Below, one piece after another: positions 57,015 to 63,101 of a DNA stretch of 64,000 nt; position 1 is the first letter of the stretch, and each line of letters opens with the position of its first letter. Source of the DNA: Gluconobacter cadivus (lineage in GTDB: Bacteria > Pseudomonadota > Alphaproteobacteria > Acetobacterales > Acetobacteraceae); contig NZ_JABCQI010000001.1 in NCBI RefSeq assembly GCF_015244745.1, positions 186,001 to 250,000 on the forward strand, written 5' to 3'. The notes below the pieces were generated by a model that did no database searches, was not told the origin of the DNA, and saw only the letters and a program-made list of their open reading frames with translations. The translations under genes were made by a program, and so were the position numbers.

Positions 57015-58064
57015 TCAGGGACGCCTCATGTCTTCGAAAATGTTGGACGGCGTATCACGACGCAGTTCGTCCGCAAGTTCCGTTCCCATACGGGCGGCTT
57101 CGAGCGGCGCGCCTTCGATGTGGCGCTGCAACAGGAACGTCCCGTCCTCGCTTGCAATCATGCCCGTCAGCTTCAACACGCCCTTCTCGATGCGGGCATA
57201 GCCGCCGATCGGCGTCCGGCAGGAGCCATCAAGCTCCGCCAGAAGCGCGCGCTCTGCTGTCGAAACGGCCCGGGCTTCCGGATCTTCGATCGCGGACAGC
57301 AGTTCGCGCAGTTCCAGATCGCTCTCACGAACCGTCACGCCCACGATGCCCTGACCCGAGGCCGGGAGCATCTGATGCGGCTCGAACACCACATCCACAC
57401 GATCTTCCATGCCCAGACGACGCAGCCCTGCCAGCGCCAGAAGCGTCGCATCGCACGCTCCGGCCCGCAGCTTGTCCAGTCGCGTCTGCACGTTGCCCCG
57501 CAGCAGCCCGAACCGCAGATCGGGACGGACATGCAGCATCTGCGCCTGACGCCGCACGGACGCACATCCGATCAGCGCGCCTTCGGGCAAGCAGTCATAC
57601 GGGCGTTCGGGATCGATCTTTACGGTCCGGTCCCGCAGGATCAGCGCATCGCGCGCGTCCTCACGCTTGAGCGTGCAGGCCAGCACGAGGCCCGGCGGCA
57701 GATTGGTTTCCAGATCCTTGAGGCTGTGCACGGCAAAATCAATCCGCCCTGCCACCAGTGCCTCGTGGATTTCCTTAGCGAACAGTCCCTTACCGCCAAT
57801 TTCTGCCAGACGCTGAACCTGATTGCGGTCGCCTTCTGTGCTGATCTGGTATTCCTGAAACGCGCCCATGTCGCGCAGGACCGGGCAGAAGCGCGTCAGA
57901 CGCGTCAGAAAATTGCGCGTCTGGACCAGCGCCAGCGGCGATGCCCGCGACCCGACACGAAGAGGGAGCTTGCGGCCAGTCGGCGGCTCAGCGGCATGGG
58001 AACGGCGGACGGCTTCCGCTGCAACTCGCTGGAGCGCATCGGAAGGCAGGACGGGAGCATTCAT
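57015..58064 (-). CDS. hemC: Porphobilinogen deaminase (hydroxymethylbilane synthase)
   Basis: Polymerises four porphobilinogens. RVGSRASPLALVQT begins the core, HSLKDLETNLPPGL follows near residue 110, and the cofactor-binding cysteine lies in LDGSCRTPIGGYA near residue 277. The core is preceded by an extra N-terminal segment of about 35 residues. I start at the ATG at 58064; a GTG at 58088 is also open. It is upstream of hemD and divergent from tsaD. Confidence 0.95.
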   Translation of the reverse strand: MNAPVLPSDALQRVAAEAVRRSHAAEPPTGRKLPLRVGSRASPLALVQTRNFLTRLTRFCPVLRDMGAFQEYQISTEGDRNQVQRLAEIGGKGLFAKEIHEALVAGRIDFAVHSLKDLETNLPPGLVLACTLKREDARDALILRDRTVKIDPERPYDCLPEGALIGCASVRRQAQMLHVRPDLRFGLLRGNVQTRLDKLRAGACDATLLALAGLRRLGMEDRVDVVFEPHQMLPASGQGIVGVTVRESDLELRELLSAIEDPEARAVSTAERALLAELDGSCRTPIGGYARIEKGVLKLTGMIASEDGTFLLQRHIEGAPLEAARMGTELADELRRDTPSNIFEDMRRP

Positions 58065-58130
58065 GAACGGCAGCTTTAGCCCATTCACACGGGACTGTCA
58101 TGATATGACAGACTCGGCCATAATAAGGGG

Positions 58131-59216
58131 ATGTCAGCCCCCGTTACTCATTCTCCCACACCTGCGCGTCCCCTTCTCGCAATCGAGACGTCCTGCGACG
58201 ATACGGCCTGCGCCATTCTCGCTTATGACGGCACCATTCTGGCCGAAAGCGTGCTGTCCCAGATCGATCATGCCATTCTTGGTGGCGTCGTCCCGGAAAT
58301 CGCGGCCCGTGCGCATCTGGACGCGCTGCCCGCTCTGGTGGCGGAAGTCCTGAAAAAAGCCTCTCTGACGCTCGCAGAGATTGATATTTTCGCTGGCACG
58401 ACCGGTCCGGGCCTGATTGGCGGCCTGATTGTTGGCAGTTCCTACGCCAAGGGACTGGCCATGGCGCTGAAGCGTCCTTTCATGGCCGTGAACCATATCG
58501 AAGCCCATATTCTCACGCCCCGACTCCCCAGTCTCGGAGCGGAGCTTCACTTTCCCTACCTGACGATGCTCGTCTCAGGTGGTCATTGCCAGTGCGTGTC
58601 GGTCGAACAGACGGGCCACTATGTCCGCCTAGGCGGTACGATCGACGATGCCGCCGGTGAAGCCTTCGACAAGGTGGCCAAGATGCTTGGTCTTGGCTGG
58701 CCCGGCGGCCCTGCGCTGGAAAAACTTGCCACCGAAGGCCGGGACGATGCCTATGCACTTCCCCGTCCGCTCAAAGGCCGCGAAGGCTGCGATTTCTCTT
58801 TTTCGGGCCTGAAAACCGCTGTCAGCCGCCTGATCGACACGCAGGATCCGACCGGAACGCGCAATGCCCTTCCGCGCCAGTTCGCCGCAGACGTCGCCGC
58901 CTCCTTCCAGCGCGCCGTCGCGGATGTGATGGCTGATCGTGCCGAGCATGCTCTTGCCCTCAGCCCGAATGCCACGGCGCTCGTCGTAGCAGGTGGCGTG
59001 GCGGCCAACAAAACCCTGCGTCATGCGCTCGAACAGGTCGCCGCCAATCACGGCATCCCTTTCTTCGCTCCGCCCCTGCGGCTGTGTACGGATAATGCGG
59101 TGATGGTTGCGTGGGCTGCGCTTGAGCGTCTTCATGCAGGCGAAACACCCAACGACATCGACACCGCCGCCCGCCCCCGCTGGCCGCTCTCTGAACGCAC
59201 TCCCGCTCACGCCTGA
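58131..59216 (+). CDS. tsaD: tRNA N6-adenosine threonylcarbamoyltransferase
   Basis: Transfers threonylcarbamoyl to A37 of ANN-reading tRNAs, with TsaB, TsaC and TsaE. The 361-residue sequence has LAIETSCDDTACAI near the start, the metal-binding NHIEAHILTPRL near residue 121, and VAGGVAANKTLRHAL near residue 285. It is first gene of a packed plus-strand run: the next gene starts 12 bases after its stop. tsaD and gpsA are commonly neighbours in alphaproteobacteria, but here three genes lie between them. Confidence 0.97.
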   Translation: MSAPVTHSPTPARPLLAIETSCDDTACAILAYDGTILAESVLSQIDHAILGGVVPEIAARAHLDALPALVAEVLKKASLTLAEIDIFAGTTGPGLIGGLIVGSSYAKGLAMALKRPFMAVNHIEAHILTPRLPSLGAELHFPYLTMLVSGGHCQCVSVEQTGHYVRLGGTIDDAAGEAFDKVAKMLGLGWPGGPALEKLATEGRDDAYALPRPLKGREGCDFSFSGLKTAVSRLIDTQDPTGTRNALPRQFAADVAASFQRAVADVMADRAEHALALSPNATALVVAGGVAANKTLRHALEQVAANHGIPFFAPPLRLCTDNAVMVAWAALERLHAGETPNDIDTAARPRWPLSERTPAHA

Positions 59217-59228
59217 ACAGGAAGCCTC

Positions 59229-59585
59229 ATGACCGCCATCCTCATCCGCGACGAGACCGGAACCGGCATCAGCAGACCCGCCCTGCGCTTTGACTGGAAA
59301 GCCCGCAGACATCTGCGCGTGCGGGACCTGATCGCAGAACGCGTCCGTCTCGAATGGGACAACGGCGGCAAAACAGAGAACGAAGAAACCGCCCTCGTTC
59401 CGCAGGGCGCACCCTGTATCGAAACCGTGGAAGCCGCCATCGACCATGCCCTGAAGGCTTTTGAACGCCGGGCCTATCTGGTCATCATCAATGACCATCA
59501 GATCCCGCATCTGGATGACGGCATCACCCTCAGCCCGGACATGACCATCACCTTTATGCGCCTCATCCCGCTGGTCGGAGGCTGA
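59229..59585 (+). CDS. Ubiquitin/MoaD-like beta-grasp small protein with C-terminal Gly-Gly
   Basis: I know no established name. The 118 residues read as a beta-grasp pattern: strand 3-8 (AILIRD), strand about 17-22, helix 29-43 (LRVRDLIAERVRLE), a second helix 63-80, strand 82-88 (AYLVIIND), then DDGITLSPDMTITFMRLIP and a terminal LVGG. The end resembles MoaD, where a GDEV-type strand leads to a PPVAGG tail, and the last residues are Gly-Gly as in modifier or sulfur-carrier proteins. The extra loop and helix between positions 44 and 80 are not in MoaD. An AGGAAG ribosome site precedes it, and the next gene starts one base after its stop. No E1-like or JAB-type gene is in the window. Confidence 0.65.
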   Translation: MTAILIRDETGTGISRPALRFDWKARRHLRVRDLIAERVRLEWDNGGKTENEETALVPQGAPCIETVEAAIDHALKAFERRAYLVIINDHQIPHLDDGITLSPDMTITFMRLIPLVGG

Positions 59586-59586
59586 G

Positions 59587-62265
59587 ATGCAGCAGCGTGA
59601 TCCAGTGCTTGTCGCCTCCCTGCCCGGTGGTCCGCTCTATCGCCTCCTGTCAAAAGTCGGCGACATGGAACAGGCCTTCATTGAGTGGCGCGCCCTGATG
59701 CGTTCCCGCTGCCCTACGGTTTTCGAAGACGCCAGAAAAAAATGGGTCGAACTCTACGAACAGCAGAGATGCGACTACAAAGGCTACGCCTTTAGGGAGC
59801 ATGCCAACCAGTACCAGAGCGATAACATCCCTCTCGCCGCCTATTTCCTACCCGAGACGATGGGCACAGCACCGCGCCCTGCATCTCCAAAATGGCTCGA
59901 GCGTCTCTCTCGTGAAACCCTTGATCCCGACGCCCCCATTCCACTGGTGAAACGCCATTCCTACTGGACCCGATTCGAAATATTCGGCTCGGGTCCAGCC
60001 CCGTCCGTGAATACCGAATCACAGCGCATCATAGATCTGAAATGGCTAGCCCAGGCCCGAGCAGATTATGTCCGGGTTCCGGTCGAACGCCCTGGGGCGT
60101 TCCGCCTCATCCGCCAGTACATCATTCGCCTGACCCTGTATCCGAGCAATGTGGACGATCCCGTCTTTGATCGCCTCTCCACCCCCGATAATGTTACACC
60201 CTCGGTCAGAACCCTGCACGACCGAGCTGCCATTCTCGCCGCCCCTGACGGACAGGACGTTTTGACCCTGGCCCGTACTATTCTTCGCGATTTCGATACG
60301 GCGGACGGTCGCTGGATCGACGGTCCGCTCTATCGGGCAACCATTCTTCCCATCCTCATCCTGCATGCAAACAACCGCATCAAGGCCACAGGCTCCGTTC
60401 GGGAAGCGGCCTACGAACTAATCGCCAAGCCAGACGCTTTCATACCGGAACAAGAGACCCTCTGGCGAATGGACACTGCGGCACTGGGACTACAAAACCT
60501 TGGCAAACGCCCTCCAACGGAACTGCTCAAGCTCAATAAAATCCTGTGCGGCTGCCTCTGGCTCGTCGCTGTCAGTGGCAAGCCTGAAGATGTGCAACTC
60601 CTCAGCACACTGGCAAAAAACTGCCAGAAGAACGAGAAAGTCTTCGAGTTCAATCGCATCATCCGCGCCCTGGGCATTACCGCAGACCGCGACGCCATCA
60701 ACGAACAAATCGCCCTGCGCCAGAAGACCCGTCATTCCATGATGCTCGGTCAGATTAACGCTGCCCTCGCCGACTCCGCCCGCAAATCCGGCACTAGCAT
60801 CACCGAACTCGAAGAACGCTCCGCCTACACTCACGACCTCGACGACCATCATGAACGGACCGTCCCGCTTCCCAACAACCTGACCACAACGCTGTCCCTC
60901 AAAACCAACGGGGCCGGGACGGTCACACTGTTCTACGCCGACGGCACCGAACTGCGCCCGGTCCCTTCTGCTATCCGCACAGAACTCAAAACCATTCGCG
61001 TCTATGAAAAACTCAAAGAAGAAGCCCGCGACCTGACAAAGGAAATGCAGGCCCACCGCCTGCGCCTCGAACGCTCCTGGATCACACAGGAACGCTGGAC
61101 CACCGAACGCTTCCGCACGAACTATCTGGCCCATCCCGTCCTGTCTTGGCTTGCCCATCGCCAGATCTGGACCCTCACCGCGCCTGACGGCGCCCAGCGT
61201 ACCGTCCTCTTTCCAAACGGCGTACCCACCGCCCCAGACGGCACCCCGACCGCTCCCCTGCGCGACGACGAAACCATTACTCTCTGGCACCCGCTGGACG
61301 CCGATATGGCCCTCGTCAACCAGTGGCGCGACACGCTGGAAGCCATCGCCCTCATCCAGCCCATCCGTCAGGCCTGGCGCGAAACATATGTCCTGACCGA
61401 TGCCGAACGCGCCACATCCCCGGCCTCCCTCCGCTACGCAAGGCAGGTCCTGCGTCAGGCACAGTCCGTCGAACTCGGCCGCCAGCGTGGCTGGCGCGTG
61501 CGCACCTTGAGCATGCACATGCCCTCAAGCGAGGGCGCCCCCACCAGCCTGACTATTCCCTCCGCTGGTCTGCATGCCGAAATCTGGACTGCCGGCGTCG
61601 ATGGTCAGGCCGCTTTCCATCACGGAACGTTCACCCATATCCTCACCGACCGTGTCCAGTTTCGCACCGTCACGGACAACGGCTCCTGGCGCCAGGACGG
61701 CGGTAAGAAACTCACCATTGGCAAGGACACCGTAGCGCTCGAAGACGTCCCATCGCTGATCTTTTCGGAAGTCATGCGGGATCTGGATCTCTTCGTCAGC
61801 GTGGCCTCCATCGGCCTCGAAGTCACCTATCTTGACGGAGCGGAGGGCCGTTCTATCGGCGAATGGCGCCGCCTGAGTGATCTCGCCATATGGAAGCAGG
61901 ACGAAACCACATCCCTCAACGGCCGCGCCCGCATCCGCTACGAGACGCTCGAACGGCTCCTCCCCCGTCTTACCATCGCGGACCGCCTCGAACTTACCGA
62001 CACGCATGTTCACGTCCGCGGCGTCCTGCACAGTTATAAGATCCATATCGGAACGGGAAACATCTTCCTCGATCCCGACCAGCGCTATATCTGCATCGTA
62101 CCTGACATTCGCAAAAAGAAATCCAGCATCGCCCTGCCTTTCGACGACGACCAAACCCTCTCGGTCATCCTATCGAAACTCTTCCTTCTTGCCACCGATG
62201 ACAAAATTACCGATCCCGTCATCCTCCGGCAGTTCCCCGCATCCACCCCGGAACAAACATCTTGA
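59587..62265 (+). CDS. DUF4132-type large protein
   Basis: An 892-residue soluble protein without signal or membrane segments. The N-terminal 500 residues have no motif I recognise beyond helical repeats. Residues about 565-700 match DUF4132: TLWHPLDADMALVNQWRD, QPIRQAWRETYVL, then LGRQRGWRVRTLSM. From about 735 a C-terminal domain of the kind following DUF4132 is visible: LFVSVASIGLE, then RYETLERLLPRL, then KIHIGTGNIFLDPDQRYI. Function is unknown. The family is linked, weakly, to the old E. coli MolR locus. It starts one base after the Gly-Gly protein gene and overlaps rlmJ by 4 bases. It is likely a partner of the small protein. Confidence 0.75.
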   Translation: MQQRDPVLVASLPGGPLYRLLSKVGDMEQAFIEWRALMRSRCPTVFEDARKKWVELYEQQRCDYKGYAFREHANQYQSDNIPLAAYFLPETMGTAPRPASPKWLERLSRETLDPDAPIPLVKRHSYWTRFEIFGSGPAPSVNTESQRIIDLKWLAQARADYVRVPVERPGAFRLIRQYIIRLTLYPSNVDDPVFDRLSTPDNVTPSVRTLHDRAAILAAPDGQDVLTLARTILRDFDTADGRWIDGPLYRATILPILILHANNRIKATGSVREAAYELIAKPDAFIPEQETLWRMDTAALGLQNLGKRPPTELLKLNKILCGCLWLVAVSGKPEDVQLLSTLAKNCQKNEKVFEFNRIIRALGITADRDAINEQIALRQKTRHSMMLGQINAALADSARKSGTSITELEERSAYTHDLDDHHERTVPLPNNLTTTLSLKTNGAGTVTLFYADGTELRPVPSAIRTELKTIRVYEKLKEEARDLTKEMQAHRLRLERSWITQERWTTERFRTNYLAHPVLSWLAHRQIWTLTAPDGAQRTVLFPNGVPTAPDGTPTAPLRDDETITLWHPLDADMALVNQWRDTLEAIALIQPIRQAWRETYVLTDAERATSPASLRYARQVLRQAQSVELGRQRGWRVRTLSMHMPSSEGAPTSLTIPSAGLHAEIWTAGVDGQAAFHHGTFTHILTDRVQFRTVTDNGSWRQDGGKKLTIGKDTVALEDVPSLIFSEVMRDLDLFVSVASIGLEVTYLDGAEGRSIGEWRRLSDLAIWKQDETTSLNGRARIRYETLERLLPRLTIADRLELTDTHVHVRGVLHSYKIHIGTGNIFLDPDQRYICIVPDIRKKKSSIALPFDDDQTLSVILSKLFLLATDDKITDPVILRQFPASTPEQTS

Positions 62266-63101
62266 ACTACCGTCACATCTATCACGCCGGAAACTTCGCC
62301 GACTGCATGAAGCATGCTCTGCTTCTGGCGCTCATCAAGGCGCTCAAGCGGAAACCCGCAGGTTTTCTCGTCCTCGACACCCATGCCGGATGCGGCCGGT
62401 ACGATCTGACGTCCGAAGAAGCTGAAAAAACTGGCGAATGGCGCGCAGGCATCGGCCAGCTTCTGAACAGTCCGACCGCAGCACCACTTGCGGATTATCT
62501 CAACGCCGTCCGCCCCAACGTGCAGGACCGGCATCGCTACCCCGGCTCCCCGGCCTTCGCTCGTGCCGAACTGCGTCCGCAAGACCAGCTCATCGCCTGC
62601 GAACTGCACCCCGAAGACGTCCGGCCCCTTCGCCGCCTCTTCCATGCGGACCCGCAGGCCGCCGTTCATCACCGTGACGGTTACGAGGCCCTGCGCGCGC
62701 TCCTGCCGCCAAAGGATTTCAAGCGCGGCCTCATTCTCATTGATCCGCCGTTTGAAAAACCGGACGATTTCGCGCGCTGTGCAGAGGCCATCGCCCTGAT
62801 CCGCAATCGTTTCCGCGCCGGCATCGTCGCCGTCTGGTACCCGATCAAGCACCGTACACCTGTCCGCGCCTTCTATACGGCCCTTCAGGACGCGGGCATC
62901 CGGGATATGCTCGCCTGCGAGTTTCTGCTGCATCCGCCTGTCGATCCGTCCCGCCTGAACGGTTGTGGTCTGCTGGTCGTCAACGCCCCGTTCGGCTTCG
63001 AGGACGAGGCGCGCAATATTCTTGAAGCCCTTGCTGTCAGCCTGCATTCTCCGGACGCAGAAGATATCAAGATCACGATCGAACGGCTGGCAGAGGAATA
63101 A
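62262..63101 (+). CDS. rlmJ: 23S rRNA (adenine2030-N6)-methyltransferase
   Basis: Methylates A2030 of 23S rRNA. The 279-residue protein has NYRHIYHAGNFADCMKHALL at the start, LDTHAGCGRYDL as SAM motif, and the catalytic DPPFEKPDDF (RlmJ's DPPY-type site) near residue 164. The start is TTG and lies within the DUF4132 gene's stop region (4-base overlap). The stop shares its last base with the ATG of gpsA. Confidence 0.95.
   Translation: MNYRHIYHAGNFADCMKHALLLALIKALKRKPAGFLVLDTHAGCGRYDLTSEEAEKTGEWRAGIGQLLNSPTAAPLADYLNAVRPNVQDRHRYPGSPAFARAELRPQDQLIACELHPEDVRPLRRLFHADPQAAVHHRDGYEALRALLPPKDFKRGLILIDPPFEKPDDFARCAEAIALIRNRFRAGIVAVWYPIKHRTPVRAFYTALQDAGIRDMLACEFLLHPPVDPSRLNGCGLLVVNAPFGFEDEARNILEALAVSLHSPDAEDIKITIERLAEE

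Follow-up and report, generated by a model that had tools for sequence, protein, structure and literature searches.

A two-gene module lies within a window of 64,000 nucleotides from Gluconobacter cadivus (assembly GCF_015244745.1, contig NZ_JABCQI010000001.1, positions 186,001 to 250,000 of the forward strand), where a small ubiquitin/MoaD-like protein of 118 amino acids with a putative beta-grasp fold and a Gly-Gly end is encoded directly ahead of an 892-residue protein carrying DUF4132 and DUF7737 domains. The two genes are found as pairs in other genomes, the terminal Gly of the small protein is conserved, a single Cys of the large partner, Cys836, is invariant among the partners of Gly-tailed proteins, and the tail and the Cys have been lost jointly on two branches of the partner tree. 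Based on these patterns in the alignments, we propose that the Gly tail works at Cys836, to which it is probably passed.

Results

The Gly tail and Cys836 tend to be retained and lost together

Both open reading frames (ORFs) described in the earlier note were confirmed on the forward strand: the small gene, whose product ends in RLIPLVGG (59229..59585), and the partner gene, which starts 1 bp past it (59587..62265). The codons of the terminal Gly-Gly (59577..59582) are directly followed by the stop codon TGA (59583-59585). The partner passed the Pfam cut-off of 27 bits for PF13569 (DUF4132; residues 453-636, 60943..61494; 110 bits, E 1.7e-31) and for PF24879 (DUF7737; residues 782-882, 61930..62232; 120.7 bits, E 3.1e-35), and the latter domain includes His820 (62044..62046) and Cys836 (62092..62094). 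Pfam, NCBIfam, PADLOC and PHROGs held nothing that matched the small protein.

Among 23 small proteins of the family, which range from 118 to 148 amino acids, the last Gly is present with nothing after it in 22, corresponding to 12 of 13 clusters at 60% identity, although the window protein shares only 25-36% identity with the 12 non-Gluconobacter members compared. The tails are GG in 19 members, SG in three and SGRLW in one. The Gly-Gly tail described in the earlier note is thus conserved only in its last Gly; Gly-Gly itself, which the window protein has, is not kept throughout the family, as would be expected of a member of the MoaD/ThiS family. A pair kept with its Gly end lost, which that note had named as refuting its idea, was literally found once, in Bacteroides finegoldii (L112). 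This exception fits the link proposed here, because the Cys found wherever else there is a Gly tail is likewise gone from the partner there. The Bacteroides small protein (L112:4034-4453) carries three residues past SG, which could reflect decay of the tail or the extension of a precursor.

The analysis of the Cys covered the final 470 residues of each partner, with 27 rows in the alignment and the tree. Twenty-five positions did not vary among 21 partners encoded beside a Gly-tailed small protein (21 of 22, L003 being left out as near-identical to other Gluconobacter rows). Cys836 was the only one of them kept in none of five aligned partners without a Gly-tailed neighbour (L112, L126, L127, L026 and L030), where Ala, Ser, Pro, Val and Phe take its place. 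Seventeen of the 25 positions, including His820, Asp855, Asp876, Arg598 and Glu607, were kept in all five Cys-less partners, and the remaining seven in one to four of them. In Bacteroides L112, the small gene is present without the Gly end and the partner has Ala at the Cys836 position. No small gene adjoins L026 or L030, and a search with the family profile, which covered the G251 genome and the plasmid of L030 but not the Acetobacter chromosome, detected none; no small gene was seen in the 10 kb fetched around L126 and L127. The last two are distinct, long DUF4132-DUF7737 genes of a single genome, G1054, and neither encodes the Cys. Apart from L003, the rows left out were L038 (a fragment), L031 and AP014882 (by identity, the same plasmid gene as L030), L120 (degraded), L130 (at a contig end and below the cut-off; no Cys by eye and no small gene), L035 and L084 (on a very long branch; L035 without DUF7737 by Pfam), L080 YehI (nothing aligned) and L114 (no DUF7737 match).

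In a tree of the 27 rows from which the Cys columns had been removed, the Cys losses fell on two well-supported branches nested among members with Gly and Cys: one uniting L026 and L030, sister to Gluconobacter, and one uniting Bacteroides, L126 and L127, sister to Deinococcus. A separate earlier tree agreed on the branches that it includes, L026 with L030 and Bacteroides. Eleven loci were collected after the link had first been noticed, and all eight informative ones (L112, L113, L118, L119 and L126-L129) fitted it; the three uninformative loci were L114 without DUF7737, the degraded L120 and L130, which is cut by the contig end. Several points weigh against the link. L033, a paralogue and the sixth partner without a small neighbour, retains the Cys, so that five of six such partners have lost it; the same record holds a complete pair, L113. 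The degraded L120 also still reads Cys without a small gene. Moreover, only two independent losses underlie the pattern, for which a sign test gave p 0.5, and the plain-table p value of 7e-5 ignores kinship and is not evidence on its own.

The two genes co-occur as a dedicated pair in four phyla

The pair was found in other Acetobacteraceae (L021-L025), in other Alphaproteobacteria (L032 of Novosphingobium, L037, L118 and L119), in other Pseudomonadota (L036, L128 and L129), in Deinococcus (L034 and L081-L083) and in the actinomycetote Nonomuraea (L113), with the variant pair in Bacteroides finegoldii; some pairs or lone partners are carried on plasmid records. In a family-level search of 299 genomes, six had both genes, one (G251) had DUF7737 only and 292 had neither (Fisher p 7e-12); weak small-protein matches in G190 and G234 (E 0.003 and 0.002) were not matched by a later profile and were scored absent. 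A phylum-level search of 398 genomes found both genes in three, a DUF7737 fragment only in one (G352) and neither in 394 (p 4e-7). Both p values ignore kinship. The expectation of the earlier note that the large protein is a dedicated partner of the small one was thus borne out, the small gene and the DUF7737 gene co-occurring beyond chance.

Of the 26 Gluconobacter genomes, five carried the small protein, and proteins 88-92% identical to that of the window occur in four named records of this genus. In the window, the pair is flanked upstream by a gene that we take to be tsaD (58131..59216, forward strand) and downstream by one that is presumably rlmJ (62262..63101, forward strand). The rlmJ-like gene was recovered in 25 of the 26 genomes and follows the partner gene in five of these; in 19 the site is empty, with the tsaD-like gene adjoining the rlmJ-like gene within about 0.3 kb, and in one neither the partner nor the tsaD-like gene was found in the flank examined. 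The occupation of one site in 5 genomes and its emptiness in 19 indicate that the module has been gained or lost as a unit in this genus.

The three weak small-protein matches of the phylum-level search (G657, G582 and G346; L075-L077) were judged false, L076 and L077 being histidine-kinase/response-regulator proteins and L075 having no family. Degraded or fragmentary DUF7737 copies were seen at L120:11108-11623 and L038:6873-7127, with no small gene in the stretches fetched. Separately, L114:1962-2306 encodes an annotated 114-residue Iodobacter plasmid protein that consists almost wholly of the short repeat KDIKRISKGYQ.

The small protein probably has a MoaD/ThiS-like fold

The AlphaFold model of the window small protein was of modest quality (pLDDT 64.4, pTM 0.65). 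When it was compared by VIA-align, MoaD ranked first, and MoaD and ThiS were the best neighbours, with CysO further down. Threading of the Deinococcus member DRA0165, as given in the available text of PMC9650054, yielded molybdopterin-synthase subunits with a MoaD-like template. These results suggest that the fold is probably a MoaD/ThiS-like beta-grasp. The beta-grasp claim of the earlier note thereby gains tentative support from predicted structure; convincing profile similarity to MoaD or ThiS was not detected by hhalign.

Against MoaD-like and ThiS-like alignments built from genome loci, hhalign gave probabilities of 0.8% and 0.2%. Against MoaD, the untrimmed 23-row alignment did better, with a local P of 0.005 and a global P of 0.0007 (probabilities 7.5% and 11%); this match, however, aligned N-terminal columns, which puts the tails of the small family and MoaD out of register, and once gappy columns had been trimmed the local and global P values were 0.27 and 0.02. 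With the C-terminal part alone the score was 5.5, compared with a mean of 2.9 and a top score of 8.9 among 60 shuffled controls. The PF02597 profile did not match the window small protein and matched one of 13 members at E 0.23, and a PDB sequence search with the small family returned nothing meaningful. Sequence profiles, with hhalign probabilities of at most 11%, are thus no proof of kinship with MoaD and ThiS.

As for the large partner, a PDB sequence search with DUF7737 gave 0 matches; with the whole protein, WD-40/propeller matches covered only about 25 residues and no stretch passed alone. Its AlphaFold model had a pLDDT of 34, and no conclusion was drawn from it. The DUF4132 part (60775-61497) matched phage family phrog_20839 of unknown function (E 6e-10), indicating that phages carry relatives of this domain.

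A third gene family does not recur beside the pair at 14 loci

We compared 608 neighbour ORFs of at least 100 amino acids, taken within 6.5 kb of the pair (less at contig or flank ends) at 14 loci, by BLAST at 1e-8. No third gene family recurred over the 14 loci; the only two matches, between L036 and L119, lay far from the pair. The earlier note had said that the window has no molybdenum cofactor, thiamin, E1-like or JAB gene; in partial support of this, no PF02597 (ThiS/MoaD) or PF00899 (ThiF/MoeB) match of the genome falls inside the window. No E1 gene was found beside the pair in this genome with the ThiF-family profile PF00899, and therefore any E1 would be a shared one; the two ThiF-family genes of the genome lie on other contigs, C8 and C3. 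Ordinary ThiS-family genes also lie elsewhere in the genome, and L046 is labelled by us as its own MoaD-like gene. PADLOC gave no match for the pair, and scans of phage records and viral contigs, which need close matches, showed no relative of the sequences used as queries. DRA0165 weakly matched phrog_14942 (E 0.01).

The Deinococcus pair is damage-induced

A profile built without Deinococcus sequences detected DRA0165 of D. radiodurans (SEP068184) at E 4e-16. This protein ends in LTALAGG, and its stop codon lies 2 nt ahead of the gene for the DUF4132 partner DRA0166, a protein of 1626 amino acids with an N-terminal DUF5724 that has the Cys. The gene trxC lies just upstream of the pair, and on the other strand modA lies about 2 kb downstream and thiD, thiazole synthase, thiS and thiE within 6 kb downstream; three other Deinococcus records do not list trxC, modA or the thiamin cluster beside the pair. 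According to the available text of PMC8533742, DRA0165, in a putative operon with DRA0166, belongs to the DdrO DNA-damage regulon with a radiation/desiccation response motif (RDRM) at -83 (Table 2), and the DRA0166 protein is up on mitomycin C in an IrrE-dependent manner. The same source speculates on molybdopterin, and moeA and moeB were not differentially expressed. In the accessible part of PMC9650054, DRA0165 is up on irradiation and H2O2, its deletion raises H2O2 survival, and it binds the thioredoxin Trx1, which the adjacent upstream gene encodes.

That part of PMC9650054 also states that no RDRM precedes DRA0165 and that the protein is confined to Deinococcus. The sequence TTATGCTATTTACATAA lies upstream of the small gene in L034 (L034:1764-1780), L081 and L082, with a two-mismatch version in L083. 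Together with the match to the profile built without Deinococcus, this RDRM sequence indicates that both statements, as they stand there, need correction; the one on the RDRM also conflicts with Table 2 of PMC8533742. With the patterns used, LexA-like boxes were not seen at 57701-59250 of the window, nor did the 400 bp that precede each of 12 small genes from outside Deinococcus contain one. Damage induction in these other members is therefore not supported.

Discussion

The conserved tail, the specific loss of one Cys and the likely fold make a MoaD-like carrier or modifier with a working Gly end, together with a large partner whose Cys836 acts on or receives the Gly, the best reading of the module; we hold it tentatively, at somewhat less than even confidence. 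Thioester transfer is the chemistry that we favour, with sulfur transfer and non-covalent regulation as live rivals. In such a scheme, a general MoeB/ThiF-type E1 from another part of the genome would activate the Gly carboxylate, the activated Gly would move to Cys836 as a thioester, with His820 nearby in sequence, and a target chosen by the partner's variable N-terminal part would then receive it; all of this, from E1 activation and thioester to transfer and target, is inferred. A bolder version, which we regard as doubtful, is that DUF4132-DUF7737 proteins are a new class of ubiquitin-like transferases with a catalytic Cys outside the E1, E2, HECT and RING folds, each of which, paired with its Gly-tailed modifier, would make up a minimal bacterial conjugation system of two genes that serves in DNA damage and oxidative stress. 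The apparent interplay of the Gly tail with the Cys is a hint of a tagging or transfer system, linked to stress, that has so far gone unrecognised.

The tail of MoaD is known to enter MoaE, and the Gly tail here could likewise enter a pocket of DUF7737 and switch the partner non-covalently, with the Cys as pocket wall or as a redox switch under oxidative stress. The improved H2O2 survival upon DRA0165 deletion and the binding to Trx1 (available text of PMC9650054) agree with such a regulatory subunit, as do the lack of an E1 beside the pair and the members with an SG tail, which would need no acyl chemistry. A pocket wall, however, would not obviously require exactly Cys in 21 of 21 partners and lose it in five of five while most other invariant residues stay, and we consider this explanation rather unlikely, though still to be reckoned with. 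The small protein might instead be a sulfur carrier whose C-terminal thiocarboxylate gives sulfur to the partner Cys, as a persulfide or acyl disulfide, on the way to a sulfur-containing product. This would suit the structural neighbours, with MoaD and ThiS best and CysO further down, the ThiF-family enzymes and ordinary ThiS-family genes of the genome, and the thiS, thiazole synthase, thiD and thiE genes near the D. radiodurans pair. It is nevertheless unlikely in our judgement, given that the other three Deinococcus records do not list this cluster, that no third family recurs over the 14 loci, that no product is known and that three members have a penultimate Ser, which is unusual for sulfur carriers.

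A second MoaD acting in molybdenum-cofactor synthesis, or a regulator of it, is suggested by the Deinococcus papers and by the name of MolR, a DUF4132 relative. This is very improbable, since the window genome has the separate MoaD-like gene L046, as we labelled it, and the module is absent at its site in 20 of 25 Gluconobacter genomes. The downstream modA of D. radiodurans speaks for such a role but is unlisted beside the pair in the three other records; likewise, DRA0165 threads onto molybdopterin-synthase subunits (PMC9650054, available text) and the DdrO paper offers its molybdopterin speculation, yet moeA and moeB were not differentially expressed there (PMC8533742, available text). A phage-defence or toxin-antitoxin type module would be in keeping with the patchy, cassette-like distribution, the pairs or lone partners on plasmid records and the matches to phrog_20839 and, weakly, phrog_14942. 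It seems equally remote to us, since neither PADLOC nor the phage records and viral contigs, with the queries used, gave a match and the Deinococcus pair belongs to a DNA-damage regulon (PMC8533742, available text).

Pfam lists DUF4132 as a domain of unknown function. In the open-access full-text literature, neither the pairing nor the Gly-Cys link was found to be reported, and DUF7737 and DUF5724 were not mentioned; DUF4132 appeared in three papers, none seen to treat the pairing, and SEP068184 in two. The pairing and the link may have been described elsewhere. The MoaD resemblance of the Deinococcus member has already been published, and the Gly-Cys link appears to be new. Should the tail indeed act at Cys836, a single residue and a single tail would provide DUF4132 proteins with a testable chemistry, and the Deinococcus pair, already known as damage-induced and with a phenotype, is open to a direct test.

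Compared with known systems, DRA0165/DRA0166 belongs to the same family as the window pair but differs in its 1626-residue partner with an N-terminal DUF5724. MoaD and ThiS (PF02597) resemble the small family in the probable order of beta-grasp elements and in the C-terminal Gly and are its best structural neighbours, whereas the family differs in its length of 118-148 amino acids and in its model, where a second helix follows the first, and has no Pfam match, convincing profile similarity or recurring pathway neighbours. E. coli YehI shares the DUF4132 domain by annotation, but nothing in it aligns to the Cys region and the preceding gene is the pseudogene yehH rather than a small Gly-tailed gene. 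Urm1 and SAMP are ubiquitin-like modifiers activated by an E1; modifiers of this type are likewise small and Gly-tailed, and the window protein could share an E1 with other carriers, but no E1 was found beside the pair, and conjugation here is only hypothetical. CBASS Cap2/Cap3 is a bacterial E1-E2(-JAB) conjugation operon. Such operons and those of Iyer et al. 2006 (PMC1779556, whose accessible portion mentions neither MolR nor DRA0165) likewise join a Gly-tailed protein to a Cys-bearing partner, whereas the window partner is a DUF4132-DUF7737 protein without a Pfam match to E1, E2 or JAB. If our proposal holds, the module would be a system in which a carrier or modifier has an acceptor of its own, different from the systems compared here.
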